Assembly: GCA_018907035.1 (NCBI GenBank)
Contig: JACCIC010000003.1
Span: 70,001 to 134,000, forward strand
Direction of reading: 5' to 3'
DNA from: Sycobia sp. Sy_11
Taxonomy: Eukaryota; Arthropoda; Insecta; Hymenoptera; Epichrysomallidae
Length of the DNA: 64,000 nucleotides
In this document: in pieces, positions 6,877-63,746 of the stretch
How the letters are laid out: every line of letters begins with the position of its first letter
Position numbering within the stretch: position 1 is the first letter of the stretch
Translations under genes and position numbers: made by a program
Notes under the pieces: model-generated
The model's database searches: none
Told to the model about the DNA's origin: nothing
What the model saw: only the letters and a program-made list of their open reading frames with translations

Positions 6877-8126
6877 ATGACGCACAAAGATGCGGGAAAA
6901 TTAATATTTTGTGTTGCTGGCACATTCATATGTTACTCTTATTATGCCATCCTCCAAGAAAAGGTTACCCGGGGTGAATATGTTGACGAAAACGGCACCG
7001 AGAAATTTACTTATATGTTTGCACTTGTTTTCGTGCAATGTGTTATTAACTGTTTGTTTGCTAAAGCTCTGCTTATGACTGTGATGAAACAAGGGGAGGA
7101 CTCAACTAGGACTACTTATTATGCCACATGTTCACTGACATATATGCTGGCTATGGTATGCAGTAATATGGCATTACAATTTGTTAATTATCCAACTCAA
7201 GTAATTGGTAAAGCCGGTAAACCTATTCCAGTTATGATTCTCGGTGTACTATTAGGAGGAAAGGTAACTATATTTTCTGTCACTATATTTTCCCTTTAAA
7301 CTGAGTAAAACAATCTTGTGTTTCACTAAATTTATTGGTATTATTTTAAATAAACATGTTTTTATTTATATTTTTTATATGTATGATGATCTAATTAAAT
7401 CCTTATATTTATTAAAATTAAAAATAATAAAAATGTTTATTTAATTGATTGTAAAAAAATACATAATCACAATCAGAAAAATTAGTTAGATTTATTGTCC
7501 CTGATCAAAAAATTTTCTGATATTAAATTATATTTTTATTTCATTTGTTTCAGACATATCCTTTAAAAAAATATTGCTTTGTAACTCTTGTTGTTAGTGG
7601 AGTAGTTTTATTTATGTACAAAGATAACGTTCCTTTGAAGCAAATTGAAGGAGAGAAATTTGGACAAATGTTACTGCTACTTTCTCTGATAATGGATGGT
7701 TTGACCAGTGCAGTACAAGATAAAATGCGAGCAGAACATAAAACAAAATCTGGCCATATGATGTACAATATGAACGTCTGGTCTGTTGTTATCAGTGGTG
7801 TTGTTATTTTATTCTCTGGTGAACTTTTCAGCTTCCTCAAGTTCTTGCAAAGACACCCATTTGCTATACAGCATATAATGTTTCTATCTCTATGTGGAGC
7901 AATTGGACAGTACTTTATATTTTTAACTGTAGCTGAATTTGGTCCTTTAACATGTTCAATAGCTACAACCACAAGAAAATGTTTTACTGTCTTAGCATCA
8001 GTTTTATTCTTTGGTAATTCATTACTTCCCAGACAGTGGTTAGCTACAGTTCTTGTATTCTTAGGACTATTTTTAGATATTTTTTATGGAAAAACGAAGA
8101 CTGCTAAAAAAGACGTATCTAAGTAA
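6877..8126 (+). CDS. meigo: SLC35B1 / meigo-like ER nucleotide(-sugar) transporter
   Basis: Two exons, 6877-7263 and 7554-8126, joined in phase 0 (AAG|GTAACT ... TTGTTTCAG|ACA), give 319 residues, close to the ~322 of human SLC35B1. The chain is almost entirely hydrophobic and fits the ten-pass drug/metabolite transporter fold. Recognisable family stretches are TFICYSYYAILQEKVTRGEY near residue 16, NYPTQVIGKAGKPIPVMILG ending exon 1, DGLTSAVQDKMR, and FGPLTCSIATTTRKCFTVLA with its TTTRK motif near the C-terminus. SLC35B1 relatives act in the ER membrane (ATP/ADP exchange in vertebrates); Drosophila meigo affects ER function and neurite targeting. The Lys pair in the tail (KKDVSK) is not at the canonical -3/-4 retrieval positions. 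The ATG has a good context (AAAATGA). The ORF reading on past 7263 is intron. Confidence 0.93.
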
Positions 8127-21632: not shown

Positions 21633-22922
21633 CGTAGATTGCTATTTATATTTTGAGCCTAATAATAAAAAGACAGTAATTTATTATTGAAAATGACTTT
21701 ATTGTTTTTCGAAGTATTCTCCATGATGATCAATACACTTTTGCATGCGCTCGAACCAATTTTCGTAACACTTTTTCCACTCCTATTGAGGTATCTCTAA
21801 AACATGGTTTTTGAATGCATCAACGGTTTCTTCAGGCACCAAAAGACTTTGACCACGCAATTTATTTTTGATGTGTGGAAATAAGAAGAAGTCATTGGGT
21901 GCCAAATCAGGGCTATAAGACGGATGACCCATCGATTCGATGTTTTGGATTGTTCAAAATTTGTTTGTTTGAACCGATGTGTTAGAGCTCGCATTGTCAT
22001 GATGAAGAATAATTCTTCGTTGCCAGTTGTTTTTTCGTATTTCAGAAAGCATTTGTAGCAAACAAATGATTATGTACCATTCAAAATTCACCATTTTACA
22101 TTGCTCTAACGGCACGACATCCACATGTACAGTTATTCCGAAGAAACTGGCGATCATTTGCTTCGAGGTGCTTCGAGCACGAACGACTTTTGTTGAATTG
22201 GACTTGTCTTGGAAGACCCATACAGTAGATTGCTGTTTTGTTTCGGGATCATATATATAGATCCAAGATTTGTTACCTGTGTAGATTTTATACATAGTTT
22301 TTGATGCACCGCAATTGTATTTGTTGAGCATTTTCTTGCACCAAGTAAGACGAGCATCTTTTTGAGTTTTTGTCAAATTATGCGCGATCCAACGTGAATA
22401 AATTTTTTAACACCTAAATGGTCATGCAATATCTTATTGATGTTCCTCGTACTAATACCCAAAGATGCCTCAATCTCACGATATATCATATGACGATCTT
22501 GCTTTATCAATTCGCGCACAAAATTAATGTTTTCCAGCACAACCACAGATTTTGAACGACCTCCACGGAACTTGTCCTGGAGCGAATTGCGACCACGATT
22601 AAATTCATTATACCAACGTTTCACAGTGGCCAAGGATCGGGCTTCATCGCCAAAAGGTGAAGTAAATTGATCGATGCACTCTTGTCTTGAGAAGCCACAT
22701 TGAAAGTTGTAAAAAATCATCACACGAATATTTTCATAAGTTAGTTTCATTTTTTCGCTTAGACAAAATTTTCAAGTCACTGTAAATAACACAAGTTATA
22801 CTTAAATGACAAAATATTCTGAAGAAGATTATGGTTAAAAAAGTCAAACTTTAAGTGGACACATCAAATGGCACCTGCAACACTTGGTACGCCAAAGCTC
22901 AAAATATAAATAGAAACTGTCA
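21633..22922 (-). mobile_element. mariner element, 1290 bp, inactive copy 1
   Basis: The element is flanked by TA on both sides (21631-21632 and 22923-22924), the mariner target duplication. The terminal inverted repeats are 26 bp each; their inner 17 bases (CTATTTATATTTTGAGC) are identical while the outermost bases have diverged. Size is typical of mariner. It carries one broken transposase on the minus strand (separate entry). Confidence 0.88.
21699..22750 (-). pseudogene. Broken mariner transposase (copy 1)
   Basis: The start is at 22750 (MKLTYENIRVMIFYNFQCG) and the natural stop TAA at 21701-21699 follows the usual C-terminus (GEYFEKQ). The N-terminal helix-turn-helix region (RWYNEFNRGRNSLQDKFRGG) is intact. 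The frame shifts at about 22375, at IHVG|W..HNLT, and again within about 21950-22000; there is also an in-frame stop near the C-terminus (EIPQ*EW). Of the catalytic triad, the first Asp is changed (TGNKSWIY where the family has TGDES), while the second (HHDNASS) and third (SPDLAPNDFF) remain. It is therefore non-autonomous and dead. Confidence 0.88.
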
Positions 22923-34897: not shown

Positions 34898-37800
34898 TGC
34901 TTAACGATGAGCCATCCTTAATCAATTCTAAACCACGAGGTCGAATCCAACAGAGGCTGACGTCGATCCATCGGCGAGTAATGCGACGACGACAACAACG
35001 ACGACGGGGAGTGTGTTCTCCACGCCGTCGGCCGAGACCTGCCTGGCCCACTCGATCGACGACTTCCCCATCGACCTCTTCACGGCCGCGCAGCGCCGCA
35101 GCGGCGCCGTCCTCTTTCACGTCTTCTTCGGACTGTACTGCTTCCTGCTTACGGCCTACGTGTGCAACGACTACCTGCTGCCCTCCCTCGATTGCATATG
35201 CGCCGATCTAAGGATCAGCGCGGACGTCGCGGGCGCGACCTTCCTCGCCACGGCCAGCTGCTTTCCCGAGCTGTTCGTGAACGTCGTCGGCACCTTCCTG
35301 ACGGAGTCGGATCTGGGGGTCGGGACCGTGGTGGGCGGCGCGGTGTTCAACACTTTCGCCACCCCGGCCGTGGGGGCTCTGTTCGCTGCCAAGGTTGGTT
35401 GCTTCTTTCCTCTCTTTCTTTTTCAGTTCTTTTTACAATTCTGATTAAAATTTAAGAGCCTCTGTCGATATCCGGTCATATGAGTTTGTTGGTTTTGTTC
35501 TAAGTTATTTAGATGAAAAATATAAGAGATAATAAAGTTTCAATATTTTTATTACACGATTCGCGCATAAGTAATTTACTTTGTGTACAAGTATATACAT
35601 ATAAATACGAGTTTTTAAAAAAAAATTAAATCTGTATAATAGCCTATTATCTCACAATTTGTTGGAAACCAAAATGTCAAAACTAAACATTTGCTTTACG
35701 AAGAATTATAAGGAATAAACTAAATTCTTTTGTAAACTAAAAAAATGATAAATTTGTATTGACATATTGATATATCTAAATTCCTTCGAATGAAAAGAAA
35801 AACAGATGATATTATATACACGCATTCTAACATCTATTCGAATAAAATTCGTCAAAAGCTTGGTCTCACTGGACACAGTATTATATATGCTGTATACAGC
35901 GGAATTAATATTGTTTAACAGTGTAAAAGTGTAAATAAAGATCTATATAAAACAAAGAAATTTGTATCGCTTATTTCATAACAATCATGATTACACTTTT
36001 TTTAGACAAGGTTCGATGTAATAATTGAAATAACTATACAAACAATATTCATCAATAGTTTTGAATGAATTTTTATCACTTTTTTACAATTTGAATATTG
36101 TTAACATTATTATTATTAATAAAGCATAAAACTACAAAAAACAATAACAACAACAAAAATAGTAATAATAATAATAATAATATAACAATAATAAATAATT
36201 TAAAAAATAATCAAAATATAATAGTTATTTAGGTATGATTGTACTTTATAGAGTTTATTTATTTTATAATGATTATATAGTGATATACTCTACGATAATA
36301 CGTGCATGAACATCAATTTCCATATAATTTTCTAATTAATTAAAATGAAGCATATGGAAAATGAAAAATTATCGGACTCGCCCAATATATAATTAAAGAG
36401 TTCGATTTAATAAATATTTCAGGGTATACAATTAAAATGGCAAATTTTGTCACGAGATTGCGTCATTTACTCATTATCCGTGGGCACTCTGGTCCTAGTC
36501 ATGTGGGACGGCTACGTAAATTGGTACGAGTCGGCCATCCTCCTGCTGCTCTTTGCGGGCTACTTTACCCTGCTGTTCGTCAACGACAGCATCGTGAGGA
36601 GATTCAAGAAAATGTTCTCCAGATACAAAGTGAAGCCCACCGAGGTCGAGGCCAAATCAGGTGATTATCTACATGCATATGTGTATATATTTCATTGTTT
36701 ATCTGAAAATTGGATCGCGAGTAATACCGGTATACGATGCTTTTCTTTGTTCGATTAAAAATGTCGACAAACAAAAAGCACAAAACTGAGCGAAATAAAA
36801 GCATTAAAACATTTGCAGAAGATAAAGAGGTCATAAAGCATGAAAATTACATGATGCCGTTCGGAACTTACAAACCGTACTTTCACGGAGAGCTGGTGAC
36901 CGAATACAGAAACAGTTTGAGCAAAATTAAAGCGCAGAGCCAAGGAAGTGCCGAAAGCGCTCATAAACCAATCATGGAAGTGTACACCGAGCCCGGTAAG
37001 CGCGTATTGTCTTATCGCAAAACAAAAATTTAACTAGCCTGAAATAGGAAAATACTTATATTTTTTAAAAGTGCAGTAAATTATCTTCTTTTTTTTAATT
37101 TGCAATTCAAACTTTTAATTTCAAAGAAAAACGATAAACAGTTTACACTGTTTTACGTTCAAAACATTTCTTGAATTTTTAATTTAAATTCAGCAATTTT
37201 TACCGACGAGTCGGCTGATTAGAAATTATAAAAATAATTTATTTTTATCATGAATATACATATTTAAAAAGTAATTGGATTCTATATGAGCACTTTTGTC
37301 AGCGGTGTAAATTTTTGTTTTTTTTTTCAACAGTTTCATGTAAACTCACTATAGGAATCTTAGCATTAATATTGTATTATTTTACTTAAATTGATTGCAA
37401 ATAATAAATTAGTAAATAAATCAATAGCTGGATATGTATTTTTCATATAATTAGTATTCATTATTTTTTACAATATAAGCGATAATTGGTCGACCGAAAA
37501 GTCGAAGTTTACTTATAAATTATTATATAAGTGTAAAACAATATTTTAGACATTACATCTTTAAAAATTTTTTTTATGCGTACGTCCTCACTATACCGCA
37601 ATCGATAAAATACGAAATAAATTAATGAAAGGAAAGCAAATAATTTAATAGTTATAATCATATATATATATAGCAATACGATTTATCGGGCACCTAAAAC
37701 ACATCGACATACTGACAGAGAAAATATTCCAATTTCCCCGCCAGAGACGATATTCGCTTGGCCGTCCAAGAGCAGCACCCTCGAGAGGCTCTGGTTCATG

Positions 37801-39394
37801 TTCACGTGGCCCCTGAAATTCATCCTCTTCGTCAGCATACCGGACAGCCGATTCAAGCGGCTGCGCAGATTCTATCCCCTGACCTTCGTCATGTGCGTCA
37901 TCTGGATCGCCATCTCCTCCTACCTGGTCTCGTGGATGACGACCGTAGTGGGCGACACCGTCGGCATCCCGGACTCGGTCATGGGGATCACTTTCCTGTC
38001 GGCGGGCGGCAATCTCCCGGAGATGGTGTCGATCGTCATACTGTCGCGGCAAGGTCACTACACGTTTTATGTATATCACATGCTCTCTAAAATTGGATAA
38101 GTGCAATTTCGTTTGTTTTTCATTCAACTTTGTTTGATCCAACTTATCAATAAATGAATATACACTTATTTTTAAGTAATTTTTAAACTTTAGTTTGAAA
38201 ACATGGAGAGACCATTTCAAAAGATTAAGGGAATTTTCCACTTTTTCTATAGATACCAATAATTTTAGCATTCTTAGTCAGTTCTACCATCTGCCAATAG
38301 ATGGTAGCTTTTATTTTTCGAATGTTATCTGAACGTAACCATCCTCAATTGTTAATATCAAGCGTATTTTTGACATTCAATCTTTAGGTTAATATCCTTG
38401 ATGGTATACGTATATCAGTCGAAAAATGCTTTTCTGGTTTTCAGGTAATACCGAGTTTATATACAGCATGTAAGGCGACTTTTAGAAATAATTTAACTTA
38501 TATAATTTTACACTTATTATAAATATATTTTAAATATTTATTAAGTGAATTATTTTACTTATCAAATAATCAAATATATACTTCCCTTACGTAAAGGAAT
38601 CTAAACTTCTCAAATGAATCAACCTGAATTTCAAATAAATGGATATTCACTTATTCAATCTTACAGAGTATATTATATTTTTCGGGTTTTTGTATATTAT
38701 ATATAATAGATCCAACAAATGTTTTTTTAATTCGGAATGTATACCTCTGATAAGACATTCTCCCAGACATAAAGTATTTTTACACATATACAGAAAATCT
38801 GCTTTAAGGTTTCGAAAAATTCCGATCTCTCTATACAATATCTTTCTTTCACGTTCGTCAAATAATGAAAAGAAGCCATACATACAGCCATATCTACAAT
38901 TTTCCTGAATAATGTAACTTAAGGTTTATTAAGGATTTTGCTAGTAAGACGTTAATAAAAGCAAAGATGTATAAGGTTGAAAATTCCTTATTCAACTTTA
39001 ATGACTTTAATATAAAGAAACTATTCTTTTACCTTTTGTCACACAATCGAATTTTGTCTTTAAAGAATTTTGTAAAGCAGTAGTACATATGGAATAAAGT
39101 GTTTTTATGTAGAATGTAATTGAAAATAATGGATTGGCCAAAATGTTGTTATCTTAGGTTATTTTTTAGTATCAGATGAAAAAGAAGAAACTTCTATAAA
39201 ACGGAATTTACGCGGTTCTTAAAATAAATTTCAATTAATCGAAAAATATAATCTATATATTCCATTCGATTGTACATTCCATTATCATTTTCAATTTAAT
39301 GGAATGTGCATTTTAATGAATTACGTTTATAGTATATTATATAACTCCTTTGATACGCTGTTTATCGCGAACTACAGGATATATGACGATAGAC

Positions 39395-39450
<56 letters not shown>

Positions 39451-42400
39451 CCTACACGAGCTAAGCGAATACACCGCGTATTGCTCAAGCAGTGTACTTT
39501 TGACAACTATAAACCTAACGAATTTTTCACATTATATTTTTCCATAAATGCTGGATATAATAGCATAATAGCGGAAGTTTTTAGGTGTGGCTAGAATGCA
39601 TTTGTATACATCGAGTGGTTTGAATAAATTCTTATCGACAGTGTCAAATGTTTTTTTTCTACTTTTTTTCTTCTTTTCCTTGACGCGTTTACGTGCGTTT
39701 TGTTTCATAACGCACGCTTTTAAGCATATTTACCTCGAGATGTATACAATATAGCGAGGAACTGAATACTTTTTCAATTTTATTTTTAAATAATAGTTTA
39801 GAAGTAAATAATGAATGTTAAATAATAATTTTTTGTAATTCTGTGGATTTATTTTTCAATTAATTTTCTTTTTCGTTGTAATTCATAAAATATTATCTTG
39901 ACTAATTAAATAATTTATTCGAAAATAAAATGTAATAATAATTACTTATTTATAGAAGTTTTTGAAAAAGAATTTATAATATGGATGTTTTATTTATATT
40001 ATGTGAGGAATAATAAGACGTTAAAATATCTCAAAAAGTAGATCATTTGCAATAATTTTCATAAATTTTTATATAAATAAATACAGTTTTACTATGTATT
40101 TTTAATAATAAATATTTATTATTATAATAAATACATATGTGAAATATATCTTAAATTTAATAATTAGAGTTTACAGATTGTCAAGTCCATTTAGTGGATA
40201 AATGCTAAAATGCTAAAATGCTAATATGAATAATTTATAAGTAATAACAATCTTTGTTTGACTGAAAATAATATTTTCTAATAACAAAACTGTAATACAT
40301 TTAAAGTGATGCTCATTATCTTGTGAGCTTTCAAATTCTTCTTATTCTAATTTACTCCGTATATTTTCTAAGCATTTTCATAAAACGTTGTTAGTTTCTT
40401 TCAATAATAATGGCTCTGAAATTACGCTTATCTACTTATTTTAAAAGTCATTCTTTTCCAAGATGAATGTGCGAGTTTTCTACACGCATGACTTATTGAA
40501 TACCCGAATGCATGCAGTCTACAAATTTATTTATTGGTTTTGATATTAGAAAATTTAAACCAGAAACTGTCATTATCAGTGAACAAAATTTTTAGACTTT
40601 TTTTCAATATTTCTACGAAAAGTTTAATATTGTCTCGTATACGTACGAAGCTAATGTGTAAGCTTTGAAACGAATATTAATATGAGATTAGATACAAAAT
40701 CTCTCTAGTTTCATGTAAAAGAAAATAAAATCTTTTGCTTGAGTTACCTGTATGGATCTGTTAGGTCCTTCTGTAAGATAACACGAGACCTAAAAAAATC
40801 ATAAGTTTACTCTTTCAATGTAATTGTATTCATTTGTAATTGTATTCATGTAATTGTATTCATGTAATTTGCAATTAGCATTTATATCGGCTGATATTGG
40901 CAGTGTGTTTGTATTTTATAATTGTAAAATTACGTTGATTATAAATATATAGAACTAAAGAAAGCAGGACGATCATTAAATTAGGAGTTAGATTAAAATT
41001 TAAATATTATATAATTAATTTTATAACGATTTCTTTTTAGATCTATTCAATCGGTAATGATATCTTCTAATTAAGGCGTAATTAAAACCTATAATTAAAA
41101 AATTATTACAGACTTATCTAATTGAAATTTAAGATTTAAAAAAAAAAAAATTTCTATGCCAAATTAAATTGAATTTTTCAGAGCTGTTTCGTTGATAAAA
41201 TTAATTTCAATAAAAAAATATCAATTTCTAATTTAAAAAAGTTTTTGCTATTCCTTCTTGCGTAGTTAAACGTGCAAGCATATTAAAATCCGGTTAATCG
41301 CGCTACCTCCGAGATTAGATCGCCTGACATCCTACTTATGTAGGACAAAACGTACATAACAGATTGCTATCTATTTCTTTTGTAAACTAAACTGTAATTA
41401 TTGTCTTTCATTTATAAAACTTTGAAATTAGTATCATCTTCTTTTGGCGTAATTTGTTAAATTAACGCACGTTAGTTTAGAGATGTAAGGTTATAATTAT
41501 ATTCACCACAACAGTGTGATAAAGCAAAGTCACTTAATGTCACTGAAAATCAAAATCAATGCAATTATATCCGATGCTGAATAAAGTGCAAATACCATGA
41601 TGAGCTGGTACATCCATTGAAATTTTTATTGGTCTGTATCCAATAACAGATAATTATTCTTAGAGAGAAATTACTTTCATAGTATTCATATTTTTATAAA
41701 TCCTTTTATTTCATATAAACTGGCCATAAACCTTTCTTTCTATATAAAGTTTTATTTTATCGGAGCACATAAAGTATTTGAACTCTTTTTCAAGAATTTC
41801 TCGAAGTTAAATCTTATACTTGGAATTAAAAATTTGCATTTTAATTCAGTAAATATCATCTAGATAAAATTAATTTATTAAAATATAATAACCGTAATAT
41901 AATCAACTATTCGTTGAGTATACTTGCACGGTTTAAAATTGTACGTTAGTTTATATTATTTGTTTATTTTATTAATATCACAAAATTTTAAATATACATA
42001 CAGCCAGATCTTTAGTTTCATTTGGTTAAATTATTAAGAGACCATCGCCAGAAACACAAAGTATAATAACATTTTTTCTGTTGCAATGCTTTCACGGAAA
42101 ATGCTCATTTTATAATTTACTTAGCCCATTTCATTAGATAAATGAATTAAAATGATTAAAATATATGAGTATTTAAAAAAGTATACCCTTGAAATTAATG
42201 TATTATAAGTTATATTATTGATAAAACAAAGGCACCTTAATCTCTTTAGATCGTTATAAGATTCACAATGCTTTGATCTCAATTTGATTGTCCCCGTATC
42301 AGAGTTATTATATATTTTATATTTGAATAAGATGGCAAATATACCTTTACCCATCGATACTTTATTAATTGAAGGAAATTCTTCGACATTTATGTTTTGT

Positions 42401-43965
42401 TATTTTCCGTGATAGTCTACTTGAATTCCGGTATTCTTGTCGAAAAATCATAACATTTAAAGTTTACCGAGTAAGAGTATAAAATTAACATGTTTATAAT
42501 GAAAATAGCTCGATTGTAATAAACCTCGCATTCGTGCCTTTATTGAACCAAAGAGATTTGATTGAGCTATGCAAATATTAATACACACCACGTAAAAATT
42601 TGATAACACCGTTTATAAGCCTATTTCATCAGAACAATGTGACACTTGTGTTGCTTGAGTTTTTACTCATCTTTCATCTTTATCATATCTAGTTAAGAGT
42701 ACAAAGAATATTTATTCAACCAAATATTTATCTTTAAAAAAATGTTTTATTGTTTCAAAATATTGAAAACTATTATTATACAACAATCACTATAGCTTTA
42801 GTAGCATCACTATAGCTTTTGTAGCAGATTATGTAATGTTATAACTTATTTTCAAAAGAATGTATTGAAAAATATTTGTTATAAGTAGGAAAATAATTAT
42901 AAAATAATAAAATCATTAGTAAAAATTAAAAATGTCAAGGTTGATTAATTTGATTATACTGGGTGTTTAATATTAGATTATAGCTTCTTTCAAATGTATT
43001 TCGAATAAATACTAATCTAATTTTAAAAAATTACATAATGAACCAGTATTCTTAACTTACCTTCATGATTATCCTATTCATGTAAATTATTACTTTTTTA
43101 AAGATAAATAGCTCTCAATATTATTATTTTTAGAATAACAAATTAACTGAAATACTTAATTGTAGTAAAATAATTCTAATTCTTGTAAAATAAATTTTAA
43201 TATAGAATCAAATGAACTTGATGAGATAGTAAGATTACATTGAGTTCGACGAATTGTGATATAAACCATACATGATGCTAAAATTCAATAGTATTAAGGT
43301 AATCAATAAATGGTATCGATAACTTGTTTTGTTCCTCTCAAGATTACATAAAGATATCATTGATTATATAGTAAGTAGTTTTTCAATGTCAAATATAAGA
43401 TAAATTGTACGTTCATGTTATTCTTGCATTTAATTCTTTGAAACAAAGACTTAAAAGTATATACTAATTCGATTTCTAATAAAGAAAGCCAAACATTAGA
43501 GAAGCATATTTTCTAGAAAGTAAAATGTAATTACATCTAAATAATGAAATATTTATGATTTGATCTATGAAATTTAGAATATAATTTTCAATGTTAAGTA
43601 TAAGTTAAGTTGGTTTTTCATGCAAGCGAAAATCTTCCACTTTTTTTATAGGTCACGGCGATATGGCAATGAGCAATACTTTGGGCGCCAATACTCTGGA
43701 CATTCTCCTATGTCTTGGTTTACCGTGGGCAATCAAATCCTTGATGACCGGTAATCCGGTCAGCATTGTTTCTGGCGCTCTGGTTTACAGCAATCTATCC
43801 ATAATCCTGTGCGTCTTTGGATTCTACACAGTCACTGCCTGCTATCGGTTCGTTCTCAATAAGAAAGTCGGCATTGCCTGTCTCGTAATGTATGCCCTGT
43901 TTTTGGTCCTGGCTGTCATGATGGAACTCAACGTCTTTTTCTTCGTCAACCTGCCCATGTGCTGA
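26158..43965 (+). CDS. K+-dependent Na+/Ca2+ exchanger (SLC24/NCKX family), six exons
   Basis: Coding exons 26158-26278, 34954-35393, 36423-36660, 36819-36995, 37745-38053 and 43652-43965 total 1599 nt, giving 532 residues and TGA. Every junction is GT-AG and all phases agree (1,0,1,1,1). NCKX proteins exchange Na+ for Ca2+ plus K+ at the plasma or organelle membrane. Features seen: a signal peptide, a glycosylatable extracellular segment, an alpha-1 repeat (exon 2), a charged cytosolic loop (exons 3-4), and an alpha-2 repeat split between exons 5 and 6 (LGANTLDILLCLGLPW). Both alpha repeats depart from the vertebrate consensus: ATASCFPE for AAGSSxPE and SAGGNLPE for AAGTSIPD. The Asp linked in NCKX2 to K+ dependence is kept (NTLD). 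It looks closest to the NCKX3/4/5-like insect paralogues, but I cannot name the orthologue. Intron 1 (8.7 kb) and intron 5 (5.6 kb) are long. Confidence 0.9.
31649..31759 (+). pseudogene. mariner transposase C-terminal fragment inside exchanger intron 1
   Basis: Thirty-six codons match the third catalytic region of mariner transposases: DIVPYDFVFSK stands where the family has DLAPxDFFLFPK (third Asp retained), followed by SCSKGTQFESVEEVKRNA, the usual (L)KGxxFESVEEVK segment. A TGA ends the frame. The rest of the element and its terminal repeats were not found, so this is an old truncated copy, unrelated in position to the two near-complete elements. Confidence 0.6.
32307..32336. repeat. (CT)n microsatellite
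   Basis: About 30 bases of CT dinucleotides inside exchanger intron 1. Confidence 0.85.
33937..33970. other. Perfect 13-bp hairpin in exchanger intron 1
   Basis: ATAATCTATGTTT at 33937-33949 and its exact complement at 33958-33970 flank an 8-base loop. No associated gene feature is visible. Confidence 0.5.
34674..34895. repeat. Two (AT)n arrays just upstream of exchanger exon 2
   Basis: Arrays at 34674-34725 and 34854-34895. The second ends 58 bases before the acceptor of exon 2, so its length may affect recognition of the branch point and acceptor. A small GC hairpin (CAGCGCG...CGCGCTG) lies between them at about 34764-34790. Confidence 0.8.
34954..35393 (+). CDS. Exchanger exon 2: extracellular segment and alpha-1 repeat
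   Basis: The acceptor CCAACAG|AG is poor in pyrimidines but is the one that keeps phase with exon 1. The exon starts EADVDPSASNA and a seven-Thr run (with N-glycosylation sequon NAT), then AETCLAHSIDDFPIDLF, matching the CxxxxIxxFPxDxF signature before the first exchanger helix. The alpha-1 repeat reads DVAGATFLATASCFPELFVN then GVGTVVGGAVFNTFATPAVG. The catalytic Glu after Pro is kept; the normally invariant Gly-Ser-Ser just before it is Ala-Ser-Cys. Donor AAG|GTTGGT, phase 0. Very GC-rich compared with the flanks. Confidence 0.9.
36423..36660 (+). CDS. Exchanger exon 3: helices before the cytosolic loop
   Basis: Acceptor TATTTCAG|GGT in phase 0. It encodes LKWQILSRDCVIYSLSV (the family's W..L.RDxxxY region), two hydrophobic spans (VGTLVLVMW and SAILLLLFAGYFTLLFVN) and the basic start of the loop (RRFKKMFSRYKV). 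The donor TCAG|GTGATT leaves one base. The open frame beyond 36660 is intron. Confidence 0.9.
36819..36995 (+). CDS. Exchanger exon 4: cytosolic loop
   Basis: Acceptor ATTTGCAG|AA, with the split Glu codon completed by the last base of exon 3. The 59 charged residues contain FGTYKPYFHGELVTEYR and a Ser/Gln-rich stretch (SKIKAQSQGSAESA). No regulatory motif is recognised. Donor CCCG|GTAAGC. The loop is short compared with NCKX1/2. Confidence 0.88.
37745..38053 (+). CDS. Exchanger exon 5: helices and first half of alpha-2 repeat
   Basis: The acceptor TTTCCCCGCCAG|AG has a good pyrimidine tract and restores a Glu codon with exon 4. It encodes TIFAWPSKSSTLERLWFMFT, the SIPDSRFKRLRRFYPLTF stretch before the second helix bundle, WIAISSYLVSWMTTVVGDTV, and alpha-2 start GITFLSAGGNLPEMVSIVIL. 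The family's SIPD Asp is Glu here. Donor CAAG|GTCACT; if unspliced, the frame ends 15 codons into the intron at a TAA. Confidence 0.9.
39271..39449. repeat. Imperfect hairpin and (AT)n array in exchanger intron 5
   Basis: Arms of 14 bases (39271-39284 and 39297-39310, one mismatch; TGTACATTCCATTA) flank a 12-base loop. An (AT)n array follows at 39398-39449. Confidence 0.55.
40819..40866 (+). repeat. Short tandem repeat, ~15-bp unit
   Basis: The unit TGTAATTGTATTCAT occurs three times with minor spacing changes inside exchanger intron 5. Confidence 0.7.
42786..42825 (+). repeat. Tandem duplication of a 20-bp unit
   Basis: ATCACTATAGCTTTAGTAGC is followed directly by a copy with one A-to-T change. 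Confidence 0.8.
43652..43965 (+). CDS. Exchanger exon 6: second half of alpha-2 repeat and C-terminus
   Basis: Acceptor TTTTTTTATAG|GTC. It begins HGDMAMSNTLGANTLDILLC then LGLPWAIKSLM, which is the family's DMAVSxxxGSNxFD...GLPW block. The Asp of NTLD corresponds to the residue linked to K+ dependence in NCKX2. Three more hydrophobic spans follow (VSGALVYSNLSIILCVFGFY, VGIACLVMYALFLVLAVMM and a short NVFFFVNL end). It stops at TGA, position 43965, two residues after PM. Confidence 0.93.
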
Positions 43966-53452: not shown

Positions 53453-55848
53453 TCACGATATATACCCTCGTGCCACTTCGCAATGCGACAAATTCATCCT
53501 TGCGATTGCGCGAACAATATATATTTAGCTCGTCTTTCGTCCGTATAAATTTCGTTGACCTCCGTCAGTGGATTGTTCGATCGTCGAAATTTGACCTTTG
53601 CAAAAGGCGCAGTCGGCTGATTCTCGGATCTATGAATTATCTATATTTCTATTTATATTATATATGCACGGATAAAAAAGTTACCGCGTTTACATTTATG
53701 CGGTTTAATTAAAAAATTCGCATTTTTACAAATATAAGTTACATAATACGCGTTTGCATAATATTGACATCAAATTGCTTGATTATGTGAATTTCACGAT
53801 TTTAATACAATGGCATTTCGATATAAAGCATGCAATTTGCCGTCTGTTTAAATAATTATACTGGGTTTTTGCACAAGAAACACAGATTCACCGTACCCGT
53901 AGAAGGTCTCACCGTGGAACCGAAATTTGCGTTAAAAATCCTGTAATACAACAGAATTGAGAGATATTTTTTAAAAAATACTATACACCGTTTTTTAACT
54001 AAGAAGTTTTGTTTTTTCGAATTCCCTTGAATTTTCTTCGATAACATTTTTTCTTCGAAATATTCGCCTTTTTATTTATTTAAGTTGCATGAACATTGTA
54101 TGATTTTGAAATCATTCGCTTTCTATCACTATAAAATTTTAAGCATCGTATATTAGGAAAAAACGTTAATCGAATTTTACTAGTTTATTATTTTACATAT
54201 CGAATGGTTTCAAATTAATTTATTCGAAACCGTAATATATCATATTATTTGTCTAAAGTAACTACGAATTTATATAGATTATGTAAAGAAAATATGAGAC
54301 TCATACATACTGCAAGATTTTAATCGACACTCTTCGAATATATGGCTTTTCAATAAAAAAAGTCACATGACATCATTATTGCAATTTTGGAAGTTTTAGA
54401 TTAATATATTTCAAAATTCTCAAGCGTTAATCTCACATCTGGGATCAAATTTTATTTCAGCGTAAAAAAGCCTACGAAAAACAGATTTGTTTTTTTTTTG
54501 TAAAAAAGCTTATATTAGACAATGGTGTAATTATTTTTGTTTAAAACAAAATGTTTTTCTATACGCTGCTAAATTTACTTTAAAGCACTACTTTACAATT
54601 TTCATCACGATTCATCAGGTATTTCTTATTTGAATGCAAGCTTCCCTTATTAAAAACCAATGTTTCAATGGCCATTCTTACAAGCACATTGAATGATTAT
54701 GAATAAAAAAAATGTTTAATATTTATTTAATCAAAAGTAATTTACAACTTGTAATATACATTTAATTACGTGAGAATATTATTGCTTGAAATGTATTTTT
54801 GAATCTATGGTAATTTTTATTAAACTTTTGATTCTCTAATATGCTAATTTATATAGAAAAAATCTAGCGCTGGCTTAAATCTTTATTGGTTTTTCCACTT
54901 ATGAAACTATAAGAGACGGATAAAAATGATCATTCTACACGGATTGTACAAATTTCATTTGCACAATTACCAATTTCTAGGACGTTTTCAAGAAATGAAA
55001 CTCTTTTGCTGATGGATTTTTCCAATAGAACGAAACTCGCTTGCGTGACAAATAATATTATAAAACAAATACTTTTGTAATTGTCGTTCAACGTATTTCA
55101 TTATAAATTTATATACATATTACGATTTTATAAAGTTTTTGTTTTTTCTCGTTAATGTGACGGCTTCATGTGATATGTCTGAATAATATTAATCTTTGTT
55201 CTTACTACTAAATACTTGAAAAAAAAATTTTCAGCCGATAGATATTTCGCTGTATCATCTTACGTATCAATTCGGAAATGAGAAAATAAAATAATCGAAA
55301 TAAGAACAATATAATATTATTTCGAATTTAATACTTCGAAACTTATGAAGCCAATACATAGAACCTGAATTGGCCTTAAAAATAAAAAAACAGAACCTGC
55401 TTCCAGTAAAAAGCATTGTATCTACATTTCTATACTTTACATTAGTAATCGAGAGTCCGCGAAATACGGCAAATATATGCATTTTATACAAATTTTCGCT
55501 TCTTGCGCCTATGTGTGTGTACGACTACATGGTTAAAAGCTAGAAAAAGCGGCCTTGAATTTCCCACTAATTAGCGCTCCAGCCGTCGATTCAAAAGCGA
55601 CTAATGTCAGCGGGGGCGTTAGCCTCCCCGCTGCGACGATCACCCGAGCCACCGCATCGCCCGAAGAGGCCGCGAGTGCGTCTGCCCTCGCAGTCGACGG
55701 CGAACCAGCCGGTCCAGCGCTGGGCGGCGCGCGGCCGACTGACGGCCGTGCGCAGCGACATGAGCCAGGAGGAGACGGCCGGGCGGAAGCCGCGCGAGGC
55801 CGCGGAGCCTCGCGACGGCGCGCACGGAGGATCGTCCGACATTGCTTA

Positions 55849-55998
55849 TCATTGGATCTCGCAGAAGGAGACCTTCTGCCCGGAGTCCTTGGCCTGCTCG
55901 TGATGATGATGCTGATGATCGCCGGGCGGGCCGTCGATCTCGCTCTTGGGGCTGCCAGCCAGGGAACCCCCACGGCTGCCGTGGGGGTAGAGCGACTG
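55849..55998 (-). CDS. Possible readthrough extension of the Hyperkinetic reading frame
   Basis: Directly after the TGA (56001-55999) and in the same frame, 49 codons stay open and end at a tandem TGA TAA. Counted by codon position, G+C is 69%, 45% and 82% at positions 1, 2 and 3, the periodicity of translated sequence and like the exon before it. The peptide is hydrophilic, with a PGDHQHHHHEQ His cluster, and ends KVSFCEIQ, whose last four residues fit a CaaX box (Ile at a2, Gln at X, a farnesylation-type end). The stop context is TGA-C and a 10-bp stem-loop starts 10 nt later. The alternative is an internal 3' splice site (ATGACAG|TCG, phase 0) replacing the normal C-terminus. The main caution is that two other frames are also open here because the DNA is GC-rich. 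Confidence 0.5.
   Translation of the reverse strand, partial: QSLYPHGSRGGSLAGSPKSEIDGPPGDHQHHHHEQAKDSGQKVSFCEIQ
55966..55988 (-). promoter_or_regulatory. Stem-loop 10 nt after the Hyperkinetic stop codon
   Basis: On the coding strand ACCCCCACGG, loop CAG, then CCGTGGGGGT: a perfect 10-bp, mostly G-C stem. Its first base is the 11th after the TGA. A stable 3' structure at about this spacing is a known stimulator of stop-codon readthrough in insects and other animals. That it acts so here is inference. Confidence 0.6.
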
Positions 55999-56100
55999 TC
56001 ATCTGAGCTGGAGGGTGGAAACCATCGGCGGTCGGGACGGTTTGTTCAGGAGGATCCTCTCGATCTCGGTCATCGTGGCGACAGTCAGCCGTGGTATTAG
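55999..56100 (-). CDS. Hk: Hyperkinetic last coding exon
   Basis: Acceptor TCTCACGCAG|CTA, phase 0. It encodes [33 protein letters not shown] and then TGA followed by CAG. The residues complete the last helix and C-terminal tail of the AKR domain, so the protein is complete by family standards at this stop. What follows the stop is treated as a separate entry. Confidence 0.9.
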   Translation of the reverse strand, partial: LIPRLTVATMTEIERILLNKPSRPPMVSTLQLR

Positions 56101-59100
56101 CTGCGTGAGAAAGTGAGATTTTATTTTTTGTCGTAGATACGAGTAAAAGAGAAGGGAAGCGAGAGTTAGAGCTGGAGCTCTGAGTCCTGATGACTATTGC
56201 TACATTCAAAAAGTGTTTCCAACGGGTTAAGAAATTAGATGCTTATTTTATTGTGTTTAAAGGATATTTAAGATTGAATATTGTCAAGAAATTATCATAA
56301 AATTGGTAAAGAATATTGCAAATAATTAGTATTTATTGATTACATATTTAAAAATTACAGTCCAGCAATTTTTAAAGTTTTATCCTTTATTAATTACGTA
56401 ATCATCTTAAATGTATTATTTTTCTCAACATGCGTATTTATAATGTTTCTTTGTATGAAATAATTAATTTTTTTCCTATTTCATAGTTTAGAATTCATAG
56501 ATAAAATATTTGTGTAACTTTTAGTTGCCATATTATGAAAAAAAGTTTTAATAAACGAAAGGCAAATAAAAACACTTGGCTGATCTCACCTAAGAATTTA
56601 TACTAGTATCAATAGCCGTTTCGATGATCAAACCATCATCAAGGTGTACAATAAACTTGCCAACGACCGAAGTGTTTTCCTTTGCTTTTGTTTTATTAAT
56701 ATTTTTTCATGTTTCACCAAGTGATTTGCGAGTTCTCGATCACTTATATTTGATTAAGTTCATTTTCGAATTAACAAAATTTGTTTGGAAAAAATTTAAA
56801 TTATTTGTTTTGAAAACAACTGGAAGTCACAAAGTACTTTGGAGGGTGAGCTTATTGGTGGGAAATATTGTAAATTAAGATTATACAGATGAAAAAATTG
56901 AAAACCTCACAATAACAATATACCAGCATATCTAATAAATACGATTCTATTTGAATTGTACAAATACATGTAGTTCCCTTAAAGTCCTCTTTTTGAAATA
57001 TTTATCCTGTGACTCTAAAAGTATCTATCAAAACTCAGTAAAAAACGACTCCCAGAGAAAGGTCACTACTTGAAGAAGATAAAGGATCAATTGACAAAGA
57101 TTTTTGATTAACAGTCCTTTTGCAGTCAATCGGCAGGAGCATTCAAATGAACACTTCTTCTTCGACAAATATTATTCTCTCATTAATCTCTCACTGAATT
57201 TACTGATAATTTTACCAACCGTTTCTACTTTTGTTGAAATACTACAACTGTCCACCTGCTTCAGAAAGAATTTCTCAAAATTAATATGGCAGTGTACCCA
57301 GCAAATCGCCTTGAATCATCTGTAAAGGAAGTTAGTCGAGTCACTGATCTTACAATAGATCGAACGAAAATGGATGCATTTTCTAGAAAAATGTGACTGG
57401 TACACGCTTGCAATGATGAGCTAGAGATAGCGTTAGGGTAGATTAATAGATATACCATAAAAATAGGTATCGAAATCGTAAGAAACTCAACTGAAATTTG
57501 AAAGCATTATAGAAGCTTTCAGAAGTAACAAAGATTTTGAGATATGCAGAAAGAACTTACTCGATGGTTAATATTATCATATTGTACACATCTAATTATA
57601 AAGTGGAAAAAACTTAGCCTATTTTACCACAGCGTCAGAGAGCCAAAAATATATGGCTAATGACCATCGGGAATTATGAAGTGAGTTACATCCATTCAGG
57701 ATACTCTAAGAATTATTTCTAGATATCATCGAATTGATAAGTTACAAAATATGTTTGAATTAGTGTCCGGCATTAGAAATGTAAGACATTGACTATCAAT
57801 AGCATTTGAGGCTTTGACTTCAGCACCAATTTTCCGATTATTCAGTACCTGAAATGAGAGTCTCAATTGCAAAAGTAAAAGTGCTCATGAGTAAAAAAGA
57901 AGTAAGATTTCTATGATAATAAATAGATAATTTATTTTCGCCCTTATTATATTCGCCCTTATTATATATATATATATCTAAGATTTTCATCACAAAGTAC
58001 TATAATCTATATTAACTACTAATCGATATTGATATCGCAATATGAAATGAAATTAGACGAAGGAAACAAATAATCAGGTATATACCCTTTATCTTAATTA
58101 GATAACTACTCATATAGGTTAAGAGATGACAAGGAATTAGTCTAAGAATTGGCTCTGCTTCTATACTTGGCTAGCGAAAGTTTGTTCTCGACTATTAATA
58201 CTTCTTTCTTCTCGTCTCTTATACAAACGAGGAATCAAAATTCATTGGATTCAGACAGTCCTGTAGTCTATGAAATATAACACTACCTAGCTACAACGTT
58301 AAGTGTTTATGAAGTTTTATTATCCCTATCCACAAAAAGCTGAAGAATAATTGAATAGTAGGACGTTTTCCTCTATAATGAGGAAGAAATGATGACCCCG
58401 GAGGACAGGAATGTCAAACTAGGATCGAACAAATTTAAGAAAAGAACTACATTATCAAAAGCTTTTTCCTTTAATCCATTGCAATGTGCTGGTGACGCGG
58501 CCGACCATCGTCCCTTTGTAAGTTAGGTTATAAAATGTTCAAGGTAGTGTCGTTTGCGGACCTTTTGCGCACGATTGTAGTTTAGTTTAGTTCGATAACT
58601 CTAGCTGCATATATCGTTCTGTTTCTTGTGTGTATTTTGTTTCGATCCGTTTTTCCGTACCAGACTTTGTGTGTGCGTTGGAAGTTATAGAATATTGTTG
58701 ATTTTGATCGGTCATGCGGGTATTTATCGTGTGGAGTGATCAAATTGTGTTTGTGATTATAACGAAAGAATGTGTGTGATTATAAGTTTTTATCTGCGTT
58801 TTAGTTAAAATTATTATACCTTTTTTGTCCTAAAATAAATCTATTGAGCTATAAATTGATTTTATTTATTTTTTATTTAATGTAATTAATTATTTATTAA
58901 TATTTATAAAATAAATAAATCTAATTTTTTGAGAGCTTGATTCGGTTTTTTCCTTATTCCGAAGGGATTTTTGCGCCAAATCAAATGTATCTTTTTTTTG
59001 TTGCAAAATTAGATTTTCTTATTTCTTACTCGTGGCTATTCTTTACCATCTCCCAGAATTTAGTGCTTGCACCACACATATGTAATAAGACAATCGATTG

Positions 59101-62100
59101 GAACTGATTTTATCGAAAAGGATTCCGCAAAGAGTAAATGAACAATAGAATCGATCTGGACCAAATCAATTAAAATGTATATTACAGATTATCCAACAAC
59201 AACTGGTAATTGAAATGCTTTTATCTTCAAACAATAAAGGATTCTAAAGAAAGTATTGATAAAAGCATCTAATCTATATACAAAATCTATTAATGTGCTA
59301 TCGATTTACAAGAGACAAGTCCATTAATTTTATATAGGAACTCTTGTCTTTTTTGATTGATTGATGCTATTTTAAGAACAAACTCTTTATTAAATGTTAT
59401 GCAATAGACTTTTAGTCTATTAATAGACTACTTAATTTTTTTTTCATTCTTCTGAATTTAATTAGAATACCAAAGGTTTTGATTAAGCTTTTCTGATTAA
59501 GTCTGGTACGATTTTATTATTATCTAATAGATCATAAATAGATTAGAACTGATACGTGACAACATTCGGTCTAATTTCTATCGTCCAGTTATGTAACGTC
59601 ATTAGTCTACTTTTTCATATTCTTTACATAAAAATATAATAGATTTATGAAGTCTTAATTAAAAGGATATATTAAAATAAAAACAAGATCAAATCTGCCT
59701 AATGATTATTTGAATAATTATATTACATTTACTAAATAAAATATAATTCAGCTACTTAGTTAACTTTATGTCTATTTTGACACATAATATAGCTGTAATA
59801 ATAATTAAGGAAATATTATAATTATATGATAAAGCAGTTGAATATGCTAATTTAAATTTTAATTAGTAGCATAAAAACTATAGTCTTTCTTTAATAAATA
59901 TTTAATAGAAGTTAGACGGTTTACCTGCAAACTCTGAAGACTTTCACAGAGCTGTTCAATATTAGTCGCACCGAGGAGAAGGCACTGGACACTTTCATTC
60001 TTGAGGGACCATGCGATAGCCAGCTGAGTAAACGTACAGCCAAGCCTTTCGGCGAATGCGCAAATATCGCGCACTTTCTCCGAGTACTTTCTGCTTTCCG
60101 AATCCACCGAGTTCTTCCGCCATTGTTCCTATTAAAAGATAGATTTTTTCTCGCGTTAAACAAAGTAATATCATGCGCTAATGTAGCTGATAGAAAAATA
60201 TCTGTCTTTTAGTTGTAAATCGGTAATGTTTTGATTGTTAATTATTTTATAATTGGATATATGTTCTTTTTAAAATTTATCTAAAATGAAACAAAATAAA
60301 CTAAATTAATCAATTGCTTTCTTTCTTCTCAAAAATGTTATATAAATATATAAATATATATATTTATATAATATATAAACATATGTTGTATAAATAGTAA
60401 AATTCTTGTAAAAGTAGCTCAAAAAATAGAAACTCTTGAACAGTTTTATGTAGATAGAAAATTTTGAAAAAACATTTCTATAGTTAGTTAAAGATTTTAA
60501 AATAAATTCAAACACCAATTAAAATAGTTCTTATAGTATAATTATATGCAATACCTACATAATACATATGATTTTATAGCAATCAAATATTATTAGGAGG
60601 CGAATTTAGTTGCCGACCTATTTTCACGAAAAAAGGACATTTATGATGGAAAATGGATACACGTTAGCTTAATGAAAATATTTTCCGTCATTTTCTACTA
60701 GTTTTTCCCATATTTCTGGCAATATGGCAATTTTCGCATTTCTTGAACATGTCGGAAGTGCGTATCAACGAAGTCGTGCTGCATCGATCTGAATAGGTGG
60801 TAATCAGAAGACGCTATGTCTGGCGATTACTGCGCTATGTCTGGTTGGGTGCAGCAACACTTCCCATTCGAACTCCAACAGGGTGCTTTTGACGGCTTTC
60901 GCAACATGTGGTCGAGTATTGTCGTGCAAGAGAATGACTTTGCGCATATTGTTTGCGATTGCTGATCTATGTTAGATCAATTTCTCTTGCAAATCATTCA
61001 GTTGGCGTTTGTATACCTCGGCAGTGACGGTTTCATTCGTCTTTAGCAGCTCGTAGTACAGCACACCCTGTTGGTCCCACCAAATGGACAGCAATATCTT
61101 TTGGCCGTGGATGTTCAGTTTTGATGGTGATGTGAACCGTCGTGGACGGTTGGCCTGGATCCACCCATGACTTTTTCATCATCAGTCTCGATACGCCATA
61201 TGCTGTATCGATTTAAAATGAAACTTTCGGTTAAATCGTACGGCATCCGTTTTCCTTCTTTATGAATCTTTCCCATCGCATGTAAACGTTTGCCAACTGC
61301 TCTGTCACTGACTCCTAACTTATTAGCATGTTCTTTCTGCGCTTGAGCTGAATTTTCGTACAATAATGCTTGCAATTCTGTAACTTCAAAGTTTTTCGGT
61401 TGTTCAGAATGTTCTTTGTCATTAACATCATTATATCTACTTCTAAACCGCTGAAAGCACTCTTTACATGTTGTAGGCGATCGAGCTTATTCGCCATAAC
61501 ATTCTTGAAGCAATCGATGAGTTTCTGCTACACTTTTTTCAAATTAAAAGAGTACAAAAGGACATTTCGAAAAAAAGATTTATCACGATTCATTTTTCTC
61601 TGATCAAAAAATTATAATTTTTATACAAATGATGATGCCTGTTATCTGAATATTATTGGCAAATTCCAAAACTAAAAAATTAAGTACTAGATCCGACACA
61701 TCTCACTTTTCGTACTACTTATATCGCCATCTATACGTGAAGGTCGGAAACTAAGTTCTCCTCCTAATATAATTAAATTCTGAAGAAGGAAAAAAGACTG
61801 AAAAAATTTATTTGTAAGACCTAGACATTCAAAAAATTTATTTTAACTAATTTTTATTTTTTAAATTATGCTTCTCGATTTCTTTACATCATAAAAAATG
61901 GCAAACATTACAGTAATTTCGAAATAACTTGTTATAAGAAAAGTATAACTATAGTTTATATTTTCAATTTTTACTTTTTTTAAAATTATAGACATGTAAA
62001 TACGATTAATATAATCAGCTATTGTATATTGAAAACTTTGACTAGTTTCATTTGAATTATTCAGTAAATTTATACATAAGACATTTATTTAAATGGTCAA

Positions 62101-63746
62101 GTGCCTGAATTTTCTTTTTAGGATCATATAACGGTGTATCAAGATATGTATTCTTCCAAAAAGATAGAATCCGAAATAAGAATGTTCGTTTAAATTCGAA
62201 CCCAATGTATTTGTGAAAATAAGAAATTCTATTTTGAAACTTTTATATTAAGTTCAAAAGTTTTATTGTTATAGAAGTTATTCTTTAGATAATTATTATA
62301 ATATTTGAATAAAAAAGTGCATTAAAATAATTAGCTTTTAAAATATATAATTTACAATAATGATCAATAAACTAGACATGTTTCTATCAGCACGTTTAAC
62401 ACAAATATATCTATCAAATAATTAAATATATCTTGTTCCACATTTTATCTTCTTTCTTTTACAGTCATCAAACACAAACGTGTAATTGGAAGAACGAGAT
62501 TAGACAAACCTCTTTAAAGAAGGATTGGGATTCATCCTCTGTCCAACTGAAGGACTTATTCTAGAAAGAAAATTAATACATTTTGTTGCGTTCGCGACAA
62601 CAAAATTGCGTTTCATCTACTGAAGCGGCAGCTTTTTAACACCGCTATTTTAAGAAGCTTGCATTCCGCTTTGCTGGGTAAAGCCAATCAAGGTTTGGAA
62701 AAGAGTAGTAAAAGAAACAGTACGGAGCTGCTATAGCGAGCTTTTTTTTTCATTGCACGAGAAAGCTTGACACTGTTAACTGTATACTTACTCTATACGA
62801 AGATCTAGATCTGGTGAGAACGGACATACCGCTGTCATCGCCCCTTGTGGAGATCATGCCGATCGACATCGTTGACCAGCACATCATACCAACACCTGTC
62901 AAAATTAGATTACAAAGAGAATTACTTTAAGAACTTTTCATTGTATGTTAAAAATGAAAACATTTACTATATATATTTTTAAGTTTATTTATTTAGGGTC
63001 GCATCCCCTCGAAGGTATTTGCGGCTTACTATATTTATTGAATTGATATATTAATAAATTATACGTAAAACTTTTGATGTTTGAAATTTAAATAAGACTA
63101 AATATTTATTTAAAATTGATATCGAATATGTGAATCGATGTACTCGTATAATGCGATAGCAGTAAAACTAAACATTTCTGTAAGAAATTTATAGTTTTTT
63201 ACATAAATTCCATAATTTTCAAGTCATAATATTTAAGTTTCATTTAGATAATACAGAAGAAATATTGTAAAGCTTTTGTAATTGTATTCGCTAATAATTC
63301 CTCTTCTTTTGTTTAATATATTATTAACTTTACGATAAACTACAATCACAGAACACGTATAATATTTATATAATATAAATGGTGAAAACTAGAAATTCAT
63401 ATCGTAACTTATACATTCATAATGAAAAGTCTATTTTAAAATGCGGCAAAGGAAAAGCCAAGTTCTAGTTCCGAAATTTATTCATACAATGTCGGATATA
63501 GCCTCTTTTTCATCGCTACTATATTAAATGAAATCTTACCGATTTTATTATACAATTCCGGCATGTAAAGTTCAGGCTTGTCCCTATAAAAAAGATGATA
63601 TTCAGCTTGCTCCACGATTGGCGTGACGCAATTAAATTGTCGACAGTTCGAGTAGGCTTCCATAATTTCGACGGGCGACCATCTCGAGGTGCCCCAGTAC
63701 ATAGCCCACCCTTTGCTTATGACGTAATTCATTGCGCGTACAATTT
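55999..63746 (-). CDS. Hk: Kv channel beta subunit (Hyperkinetic), 3' part of gene
   Basis: Five coding exons are visible: 63746-63540, 62895-62792, 62560-62510, 60128-59925 and 56100-55999. They give 222 residues, with all phases consistent; the N-terminal half of the gene lies beyond the right edge. The protein is an aldo-keto-reductase-fold subunit that binds NADP(H) and the cytosolic face of Shaker-type K+ channels. Seen: [80 protein letters not shown] and the C-terminal [12 protein letters not shown]. The short Ser/Thr-rich insert with SWTEDE is a mark of the insect Hk branch. The Trp-Ser-Pro-Leu cofactor stretch of mammalian Kv-beta reads CWSTM here. The gene is convergent with the exchanger. 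Introns are 0.2-3.8 kb and one carries a mariner. Confidence 0.92.
59925..60128 (-). CDS. Hk: Hyperkinetic exon with cofactor-binding C-terminal region
   Basis: Acceptor TTTTAATAG|GAA, donor TTGCAG|GTAAAC, both phase 0, 68 codons. It starts [20 protein letters not shown] and covers [15 protein letters not shown] and [14 protein letters not shown]. The Gln and Glu of EQLCES match NADP-contacting positions of Kv-beta2 (EQLIEN), while the following Asn is Ser here. Confidence 0.9.
60593..61767 (-). mobile_element. mariner element, ~1175 bp, decayed copy 2 in a Hyperkinetic intron
   Basis: It is flanked by TA (60591-60592 and 61768-61769). The terminal inverted repeats are about 27 bp, starting TTAGGAGG and ending TTCCGACCT or TGCCGACCT, with about four mismatches. 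It is shorter than a full mariner because of internal deletions. It belongs to a different lineage from the copy at 21.6 kb: the termini and transposase are dissimilar. Confidence 0.85.
60640..61593 (-). pseudogene. Decayed mariner transposase (copy 2)
   Basis: The likely start is at 61593 (MNRDKSFF). Recognisable pieces in order are [40 protein letters not shown], a remnant of the first catalytic region (TDDEK) with an adjacent deletion before [26 protein letters not shown] with the second Asp, and [11 protein letters not shown] with the third. It is broken by at least two frameshifts, an in-frame TAA near the N-terminus, and a small duplication (CAGACATAGCG twice) before the third catalytic Asp. 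It is not functional. Confidence 0.85.
62510..62560 (-). CDS. Hk: Hyperkinetic 17-codon micro-exon
   Basis: Acceptor TTTCTTTCTAG|AAT, donor AAAGAG|GTTTGT, both phase 0. It encodes [17 protein letters not shown]. Because it is 51 bases and phase 0 on both sides, it could be skipped without changing the frame. Confidence 0.85.
62792..62895 (-). CDS. Hk: Hyperkinetic exon with cofactor-loop region
   Basis: Acceptor TTTTGACAG|GTG, donor TATAGA|GTAAGT. It encodes [20 protein letters not shown] then a Ser/Arg-rich segment (LTRSRSSYR). The GVG.M.W start and following small-residue stretch occupy the place of GVGxxxWSPLxxG in Kv-beta. The Ser/Arg stretch is insect-specific and could be a regulated loop. 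Confidence 0.88.
63540..63746 (-). CDS. Hk: Hyperkinetic exon with AKR core
   Basis: Acceptor TTCTTCCGCAG|AA in phase 1; the first codon is shared with an exon beyond the window edge or in its last 250 bases. It encodes [55 protein letters not shown] and LPELYHK-like MPELYNKI. These are the strongest Kv-beta signatures in the window. Donor ATCG|GTAAGA. Confidence 0.93.

Follow-up and report, generated by a model that had tools for sequence, protein, structure and literature searches.

A coding tail behind the first stop codon of Hyperkinetic (Hk) is, with near certainty, conserved among insects, and translational readthrough of that stop, a UGA, is very probably the route by which the tail is made. 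Taken as a whole, we regard it as moderately likely that readthrough of the Hk UGA produces the tail and that farnesylation of its C-x-I-Q end would tether a fraction of Kv-beta to membranes; once readthrough is granted, lipidation becomes the likely use of the tail. These assignments rest on sequence comparison and begin with the gene contained in the window, that is, the whole stretch of 64 kb that was analysed.

The Hyperkinetic gene and the context of its first stop

Five Hk exons on the minus strand form one continuous frame when joined: exons a (63540..63746), b (62792..62895), c (62510..62560) and d (59925..60128), and exon e up to the first stop (56002..56100). All five are placed by the joined reading frame, which is complemented by a Kv-beta match in exon a, by a match to the aldo-keto reductase family in exon d and, for the end of exon e, by 106 relatives that in a protein comparison terminate exactly at the equivalent position. 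The joined protein matches rat Kv-beta-2 with an E value of 3.6e-57 and contains the aldo-keto reductase core of Kv-beta type, so that its main product is an ordinary Kv-beta core as in other Kv-beta/Hyperkinetic (AKR6) subunits. Its highest identity to a named relative is 80% over 189 residues (the chalcid wasp Eretmocerus hayati, P0089), and other named hymenopteran Kv-beta proteins share 72–79% identity with it over about 221 residues; a chalcid is therefore a more probable host than an ant. By sequence, the minus-strand gene is Hyperkinetic, and the five-exon frame and the rat match bear out the sequence-only reading, which had given it this name. The intron between exons c and d harbors mariner-like transposase remnants in several frames (60672–61527, minus strand), which were recognized by eye and gave no Pfam match for 61118–61486; a further mariner-like remnant in several frames (21954–22771, minus strand) matches the Mos1 HTH domain. 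Elsewhere, the window holds exons of a sodium/calcium exchanger (Na_Ca_ex; 34932–43965, plus strand) and of a UAA-family nucleotide-sugar transporter (6853–8126, plus strand).

The Hk frame is closed by a UGA at 55999..56001 (minus strand), which is followed by CAG UCG and thereby lies in the leaky UGA-C context that had been described for it. The same frame then remains open for 49 codons (55852..55998, minus strand) and ends at a tandem stop, UGA UAA (55846..55851, minus strand; UGA at 55849–55851, UAA at 55846–55848), exactly as proposed. Translation up to this tandem stop would leave CEIQ as the C-terminus, the codons of which occupy 55852..55863, with FCEIQ reading from 55866. The G+C content of 69/45/82% at codon positions 1/2/3 of the tail could be reproduced, and a spread across codon positions as wide as this arises in 3 of 5000 base shuffles. 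We dropped open length as evidence because other frames, on either strand, also run open through the same GC-rich block, as the sequence-only reading had itself cautioned, and because the 85 codons beyond the UGA-UAA are open too without clear periodicity or relatives. This further in-frame stretch (55591–55845, minus strand) shows a G+C content of 65/74/79, equally wide spreads occur in 589 of 5000 shuffles, and it has no match among the 253 proteins collected.

Downstream of the stop, the RNA is predicted to fold into a structure that spans 55940..55995 (minus strand) and that is supported by folding as well as by synonymous-codon controls. At its center lies the stem-loop announced by the sequence-only reading, a hairpin at 55966–55988 that starts 10 nt after the stop and consists of 10 pairs (8 G-C and 2 A-U) around a loop of 3 nt. 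This is the sole perfect hairpin in the window with 10 or more base pairs, a loop of 3–8 nt and at least 50% G+C; the same scan without the composition limit returns 1150 matches, overlapping ones counted. For the first 60 nt after the stop, in which an outer 7-bp helix encloses the inner hairpin, the predicted folding energy is −32.7 kcal/mol, a value reached by 7 of 1000 synonymous-codon permutations, by none of 1000 GC3-matched synonymous versions and by 1 of 1000 dinucleotide shuffles. In these three controls, respectively, 10, 1 and 1 of 1000 sequences form a stem of at least 10 pairs. Over 182 nt around the stop the excess is weaker, with 6 of 200 shuffles folding as well. The stem is known from the window sequence alone, and scans of viral and genome contig collections yielded no DNA of a relative. 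A stem-loop close to the 3' side of the stop is also found in Drosophila dfr/vvl, where it was reported to enhance readthrough both in cells and in vivo (PMC13170385). The two cases differ in that the dfr stop is UAG and that the inner hairpin of the window falls below the 35-nt criterion given there, while the enclosing fold comprises about 56 nt. In the description of readthrough by Jungreis 2016, such RNA structures may come and go while readthrough persists (PMC5100048).

Conservation of the tail among insects

The relatives considered here (P0002–P0253) are the matches of three protein searches, all queries of which contained FCEIQ: tails bearing this motif are therefore favored among the matches, and the stop and the box may look better conserved than they are. 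Moreover, the open reading frames of the relatives were called with genetic code 4, in which UGA is read as W, so that only UGA-type stops are visible. In 56 rows a W directly follows the Hk core and is succeeded by more sequence. We take this W to stand for UGA because in five pairs an identical relative stops exactly there: P0002 and isoform X4 of Apis mellifera (P0023, RefSeq) are identical over 102 residues, at the end of which P0023 stops, and the pairs P0095/P0201, P0003/P0199, P0141/P0205 and P0157/P0171 are identical up to the stop over 93, 89, 47 and 42 residues. Three rows (P0250, P0252 and P0241) end immediately past CEIQ, which is what a second W that likewise stands for a stop would produce. 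Among the 59 named proteins in one of the searches, 50 end exactly at the first stop and a 51st, P0033, in which one residue is changed, terminates there too. The only one of the 59 that carries the tail is P0055 from Anopheles culicifacies, whose gene model omits the stop together with the adjoining codons; with P0102 from Clunio marinus it makes up the tail carriers known by name, both of which are gene models without the stops.

The remaining carriers were assigned to taxa by the residues preceding the stop. Bees are represented by P0002 and P0150–P0153, which match Apis P0023 without a difference over at least 24 residues, and ants by P0147–P0149 (32 or 33 of 33 residues shared with Camponotus and other formicines) as well as P0059 and P0060 (33/33 with Linepithema and others). 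The tails P0156 and P0157 are termite-like (33/33 with Zootermopsis P0035), P0155 and P0160 are beetle-like (29/33 with Zophobas and 24/25 with several beetles, respectively), and P0164 is aphid-like (23/24 with aphid P0198); P0165, P0166 and P0168 may be crustacean. In 14 of 18 other rows (P0175, P0177, P0180, P0182, P0196, P0213, P0214, P0222, P0223, P0225, P0226, P0228, P0233 and P0237) GLISHG or GLVSHG takes the place of the stop, and at least one lineage consequently lacks the arrangement of stop plus tail. There, the frame seems to run on into another exon, which would correspond to a different Kv-beta C-terminus and no readthrough design.

Conservation as protein was assessed with profiles built from the extension only, for which 37 tails were chosen rather than every available one, with the window, P0073 and P0208 deliberately excluded. 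Among the 2030 six-frame ORFs of the window, the tail ranks first with 8 hymenopteran tails as profile (E 4.1e-11; best other ORF 0.33), with 29 tails from other orders (E 3.2e-5; best other ORF 0.024) and with 17 dipteran tails (E 1.2e-4; best other ORF 0.23). Thirty-one proteins align with the window along the entire tail. Of 42 unique tails, 40 open with Q directly past the stop, the residue that UGA-CAR predicts, and 37 open with Q-S or Q-T. Within Hymenoptera, similarity breaks off at the second stop, which constitutes an internal negative control. The behavior of the sequence beyond the UGA, on which the sequence-only reading had wanted its proposal judged, thus speaks in favor of readthrough at the protein level: a second ORF in the readthrough frame is conserved as protein between species and kept between insect orders, which together with the named proteins ending at the stop supports the proposal.

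In Trichogramma (P0087), the corresponding exon is modelled in shifted frames. Among its first 18 positions, 17 agree with the readthrough frame of the window (next-best register: 8), and the following four do not; of 14 positions examined at the other end, the last 12 agree with this frame. The two conserved ends lie in different frames of the model, which is ambiguous between a modelled intron and a real indel in the intervening part. A structure prediction for P0055 from Anopheles, based on 15 sequences, was poor (mean pLDDT 49.1), and low confidence in the tail is accordingly uninformative.

The CaaX-type end and the second stop

In the window, a Cys is located four residues from the predicted free C-terminus, with CEIQ preceding UGA UAA. 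Of 45 unique tails, 41 close with C-x-(I/L/V)-(Q/L), which abuts the following stop or the end of the ORF; as a background rate, 3 of the 2030 window ORFs have such an end, the tail itself among these. The boxes comprise CEIQ (27), CTIQ (3), CSIQ, CVLQ and CIIL (2 each) as well as CGIQ, CNIQ, CSLQ, CTVL and CRIQ (1 each). The four tails devoid of a box were left out of the column counts: P0224 and P0236 have 5 and 10 residues before their ORF ends, and in P0178 and P0209 the next W is internal, with CKMQ or CRMQ before the following W. Across the 41 tails plus the window, Phe-Cys is invariant (42/42), a2 is always aliphatic (I 38, L 3, V 1) and X is Q in 39 and L in 3 cases, so that an aliphatic a2 and a permitted X are found in all 42. 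At a1, eight different residues occur, with Glu in 28 of the 42, window included.

How well such an end would serve a prenyltransferase can be gauged from known substrates. In PMC7674641, RAP2A (CNIQ) and PDE6A (CCIQ) figure as farnesylated proteins, and the entry for PTP4A1 (CCIQ) reads 15C/20C. A yeast screen of all CXXX sequences describes farnesyltransferase as tolerant at a1, with charge excluded at a2 and Q favorable at X, but its Ras data contain two negative patterns for a1, one of which is E (PMC10320760). The authors of PrePS state that a negative charge at a1 or a2 is apparently incompatible and that small flexible residues precede the Cys (PMC1175975). These predictor preferences, no negative a1 and a small flexible residue before the Cys, are contravened by Glu in 28 of 42 and by Phe in 42 of 42 sequences, and because Glu at a1 and Phe before the Cys break them we call CEIQ CaaX-type and not a proven member of the class. 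Judged from its residues, CEIQ behind Phe is on paper an imperfect prenylation substrate; several boxes of relatives fit better. That Phe never varies here hints at some further constraint besides prenylation.

In other insects, sequence continues past a second stop: the residue after the second W is again Q in 26 of 49 rows. A dipteran second tail is shared by 57 proteins (query included), 19 of which span both stops, with P0099 covering the second only; in midges it measures about 290 residues. In Phlebotomus (P0140, P0145), this second tail is annotated as a separate uncharacterised protein. Fly second tails (P0003, P0091–P0146) abound in basophilic-kinase-type sites, namely RRNSS, RRSSTSD and RRPSTSDLLRKARERKGSE, and the end RNRRxSMAF/Y. 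A shorter second tail is common to the beetle-like rows P0242–P0249; in beetle-like sequences (P0155, P0160, P0167, P0242–P0249) it follows the pattern QKVTEFVKTRK...SYSPEEGPKCTTE...SPVQVW. The first tail of P0160 and P0167 looks interrupted by an intron. No Pfam family was found for the tails of P0003 and P0245. The sequences of flies and beetle-like insects suggest a two-step readthrough. Extending this to a two-stop switch throughout insects is tentative and, on balance, doubtful: the form ending at the first UGA would be cytosolic, reading it would give a lipid-anchored form, and reading the second UGA, in flies, beetle-like and termite-like insects, would bury the box, thereby assigning three addresses to three Kv-betas.

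Proposed mechanism, alternatives and biological meaning

In the mechanism that we propose, ribosomes would decode the UGA at some rate by means of a near-cognate tRNA, aided by its context and perhaps by the stem. Farnesyltransferase would then accept the C-x-I-Q box exposed at the end of the tail, and the lipidated minority form would hold at a membrane the Kv-beta ring, which is otherwise soluble. Where ribosomes stop at the UGA, the ordinary cytosolic subunit would result: one mRNA could in this manner serve two locations. Readthrough may also be real without F-C-x-I-Q being prenylated, in which case the motif would act as a docking motif or another cysteine-based site that changes the partners of Kv-beta. 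The invariant Phe and the commonest a1 residue, Glu, are both atypical of prenylation substrates and would suit such a role, as would the retention of CEIQ in flies and beetle-like insects despite a conserved tail beyond the second stop. However, the box varies by CaaX rules, with a2 aliphatic, X being Q or L and a1 free; it is moreover placed at the stop, and the window seals it with two stops. We consider this alternative possible, yet rather unlikely.

Alternatives to readthrough itself appear more remote. Alternative splicing might bypass the UGA and so give access to the tail, for example if the CAG after the UGA acted as an acceptor and kept the frame of exon d. Exon e indeed begins at a codon boundary, so that exon d joined after UGA-CAG stays in frame, and in the gene models for Anopheles culicifacies and Clunio the stop is bypassed; the bypassed pieces in both fly models, however, look like gene-predictor artefacts. 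With 50 of the 59 named proteins terminating at the stop and a single one carrying the tail, a splice isoform is disfavored, and further points oppose it: The codons immediately past the stop are conserved, midge P0003 contains exons d and e as one open stretch, and in P0002 exon d is joined to exon e with stop and tail retained. Unlike P0150, which has other sequence before exon e, P0002 therefore looks like a spliced mRNA that holds both. Altogether, splicing is improbable as the source of the tail. Still less probable is A-to-I editing of the UGA to UGG (Trp) in some mRNAs. RNA editing is common in insect nervous-system transcripts, and every visible relative has UGA at this position, which is, however, an effect of how the relatives were found; the edited A would follow a G, the least favored neighbor for ADAR. 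Among papers linking Hyperkinetic with RNA editing in Drosophila, judged by titles and the beginnings of abstracts, no claim of editing at the Hyperkinetic stop was found. Selenocysteine insertion and a chance open frame in a GC-rich 3' UTR have between them a negligible probability, even though the stop is a UGA and the GC-rich block is open in several frames. We rejected the former because no SECIS element was present among Rfam matches up to E 5 over 55000–56500 and because honey bee and Nasonia have lost selenoproteins and the capacity to make them, as reported in PMC2500217. The latter was rejected on the grounds that the tail-only profiles place the window tail first of 2030 ORFs; the lack of any match for the open stretch past UGA-UAA likewise speaks against chance.

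Readthrough with a lipidated tail would have partial counterparts in described systems. Syx17 of Drosophila is a membrane protein. Its readthrough extension is, like that of Hk, predicted to be farnesylated (Dunn 2013, Table 2, PMC3840789), but this nearest published case is one in silico prediction in one species, whereas Hk is a soluble protein whose box has persisted across insect orders. In the reports on peroxisomal LDHB, MDH1 and others (PMC4359377, PMC5100048), a minority extension likewise ends in a short address signal that redirects a soluble enzyme-type protein; in contrast, Hk is a channel subunit, and its address would be a membrane, predicted from the CaaX-type box, instead of the peroxisome. 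An in-frame second ORF conserved as protein past a leaky stop, as found for Hk, is reported by Jungreis 2016, where double readthrough is described as well; different is that Apis and Tribolium appear there without abundant readthrough, whereas here bees and beetle-like insects have the Hk case (PMC5100048). Neither Hyperkinetic nor potassium channel, sought by these full names, is mentioned in the main text of that article, and its supplementary lists may contain an earlier prediction for fly or mosquito Hk. Titles and the beginnings of abstracts gave no report of Hk readthrough or of a C-terminally extended or prenylated Kv-beta. New over the sequence-only reading are the CaaX-type end, the depth of conservation and the suggested second readthrough step in other insects.

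As a channel subunit, Hk plays an important part in insect excitability and sleep. If the proposed reading is true, this subunit has an unannotated form that has been kept across insect orders and whose likely job is legible from its end, and readthrough would here, in a deeply conserved instance, turn a soluble protein into a membrane one. Should the two-stop reading hold as well, the second stop would be a lipidation switch and one mRNA would account for three forms. Hk would, moreover, provide a clear example of readthrough in bees and beetles, in which the single-genome test reported in PMC5100048 saw none that was abundant.
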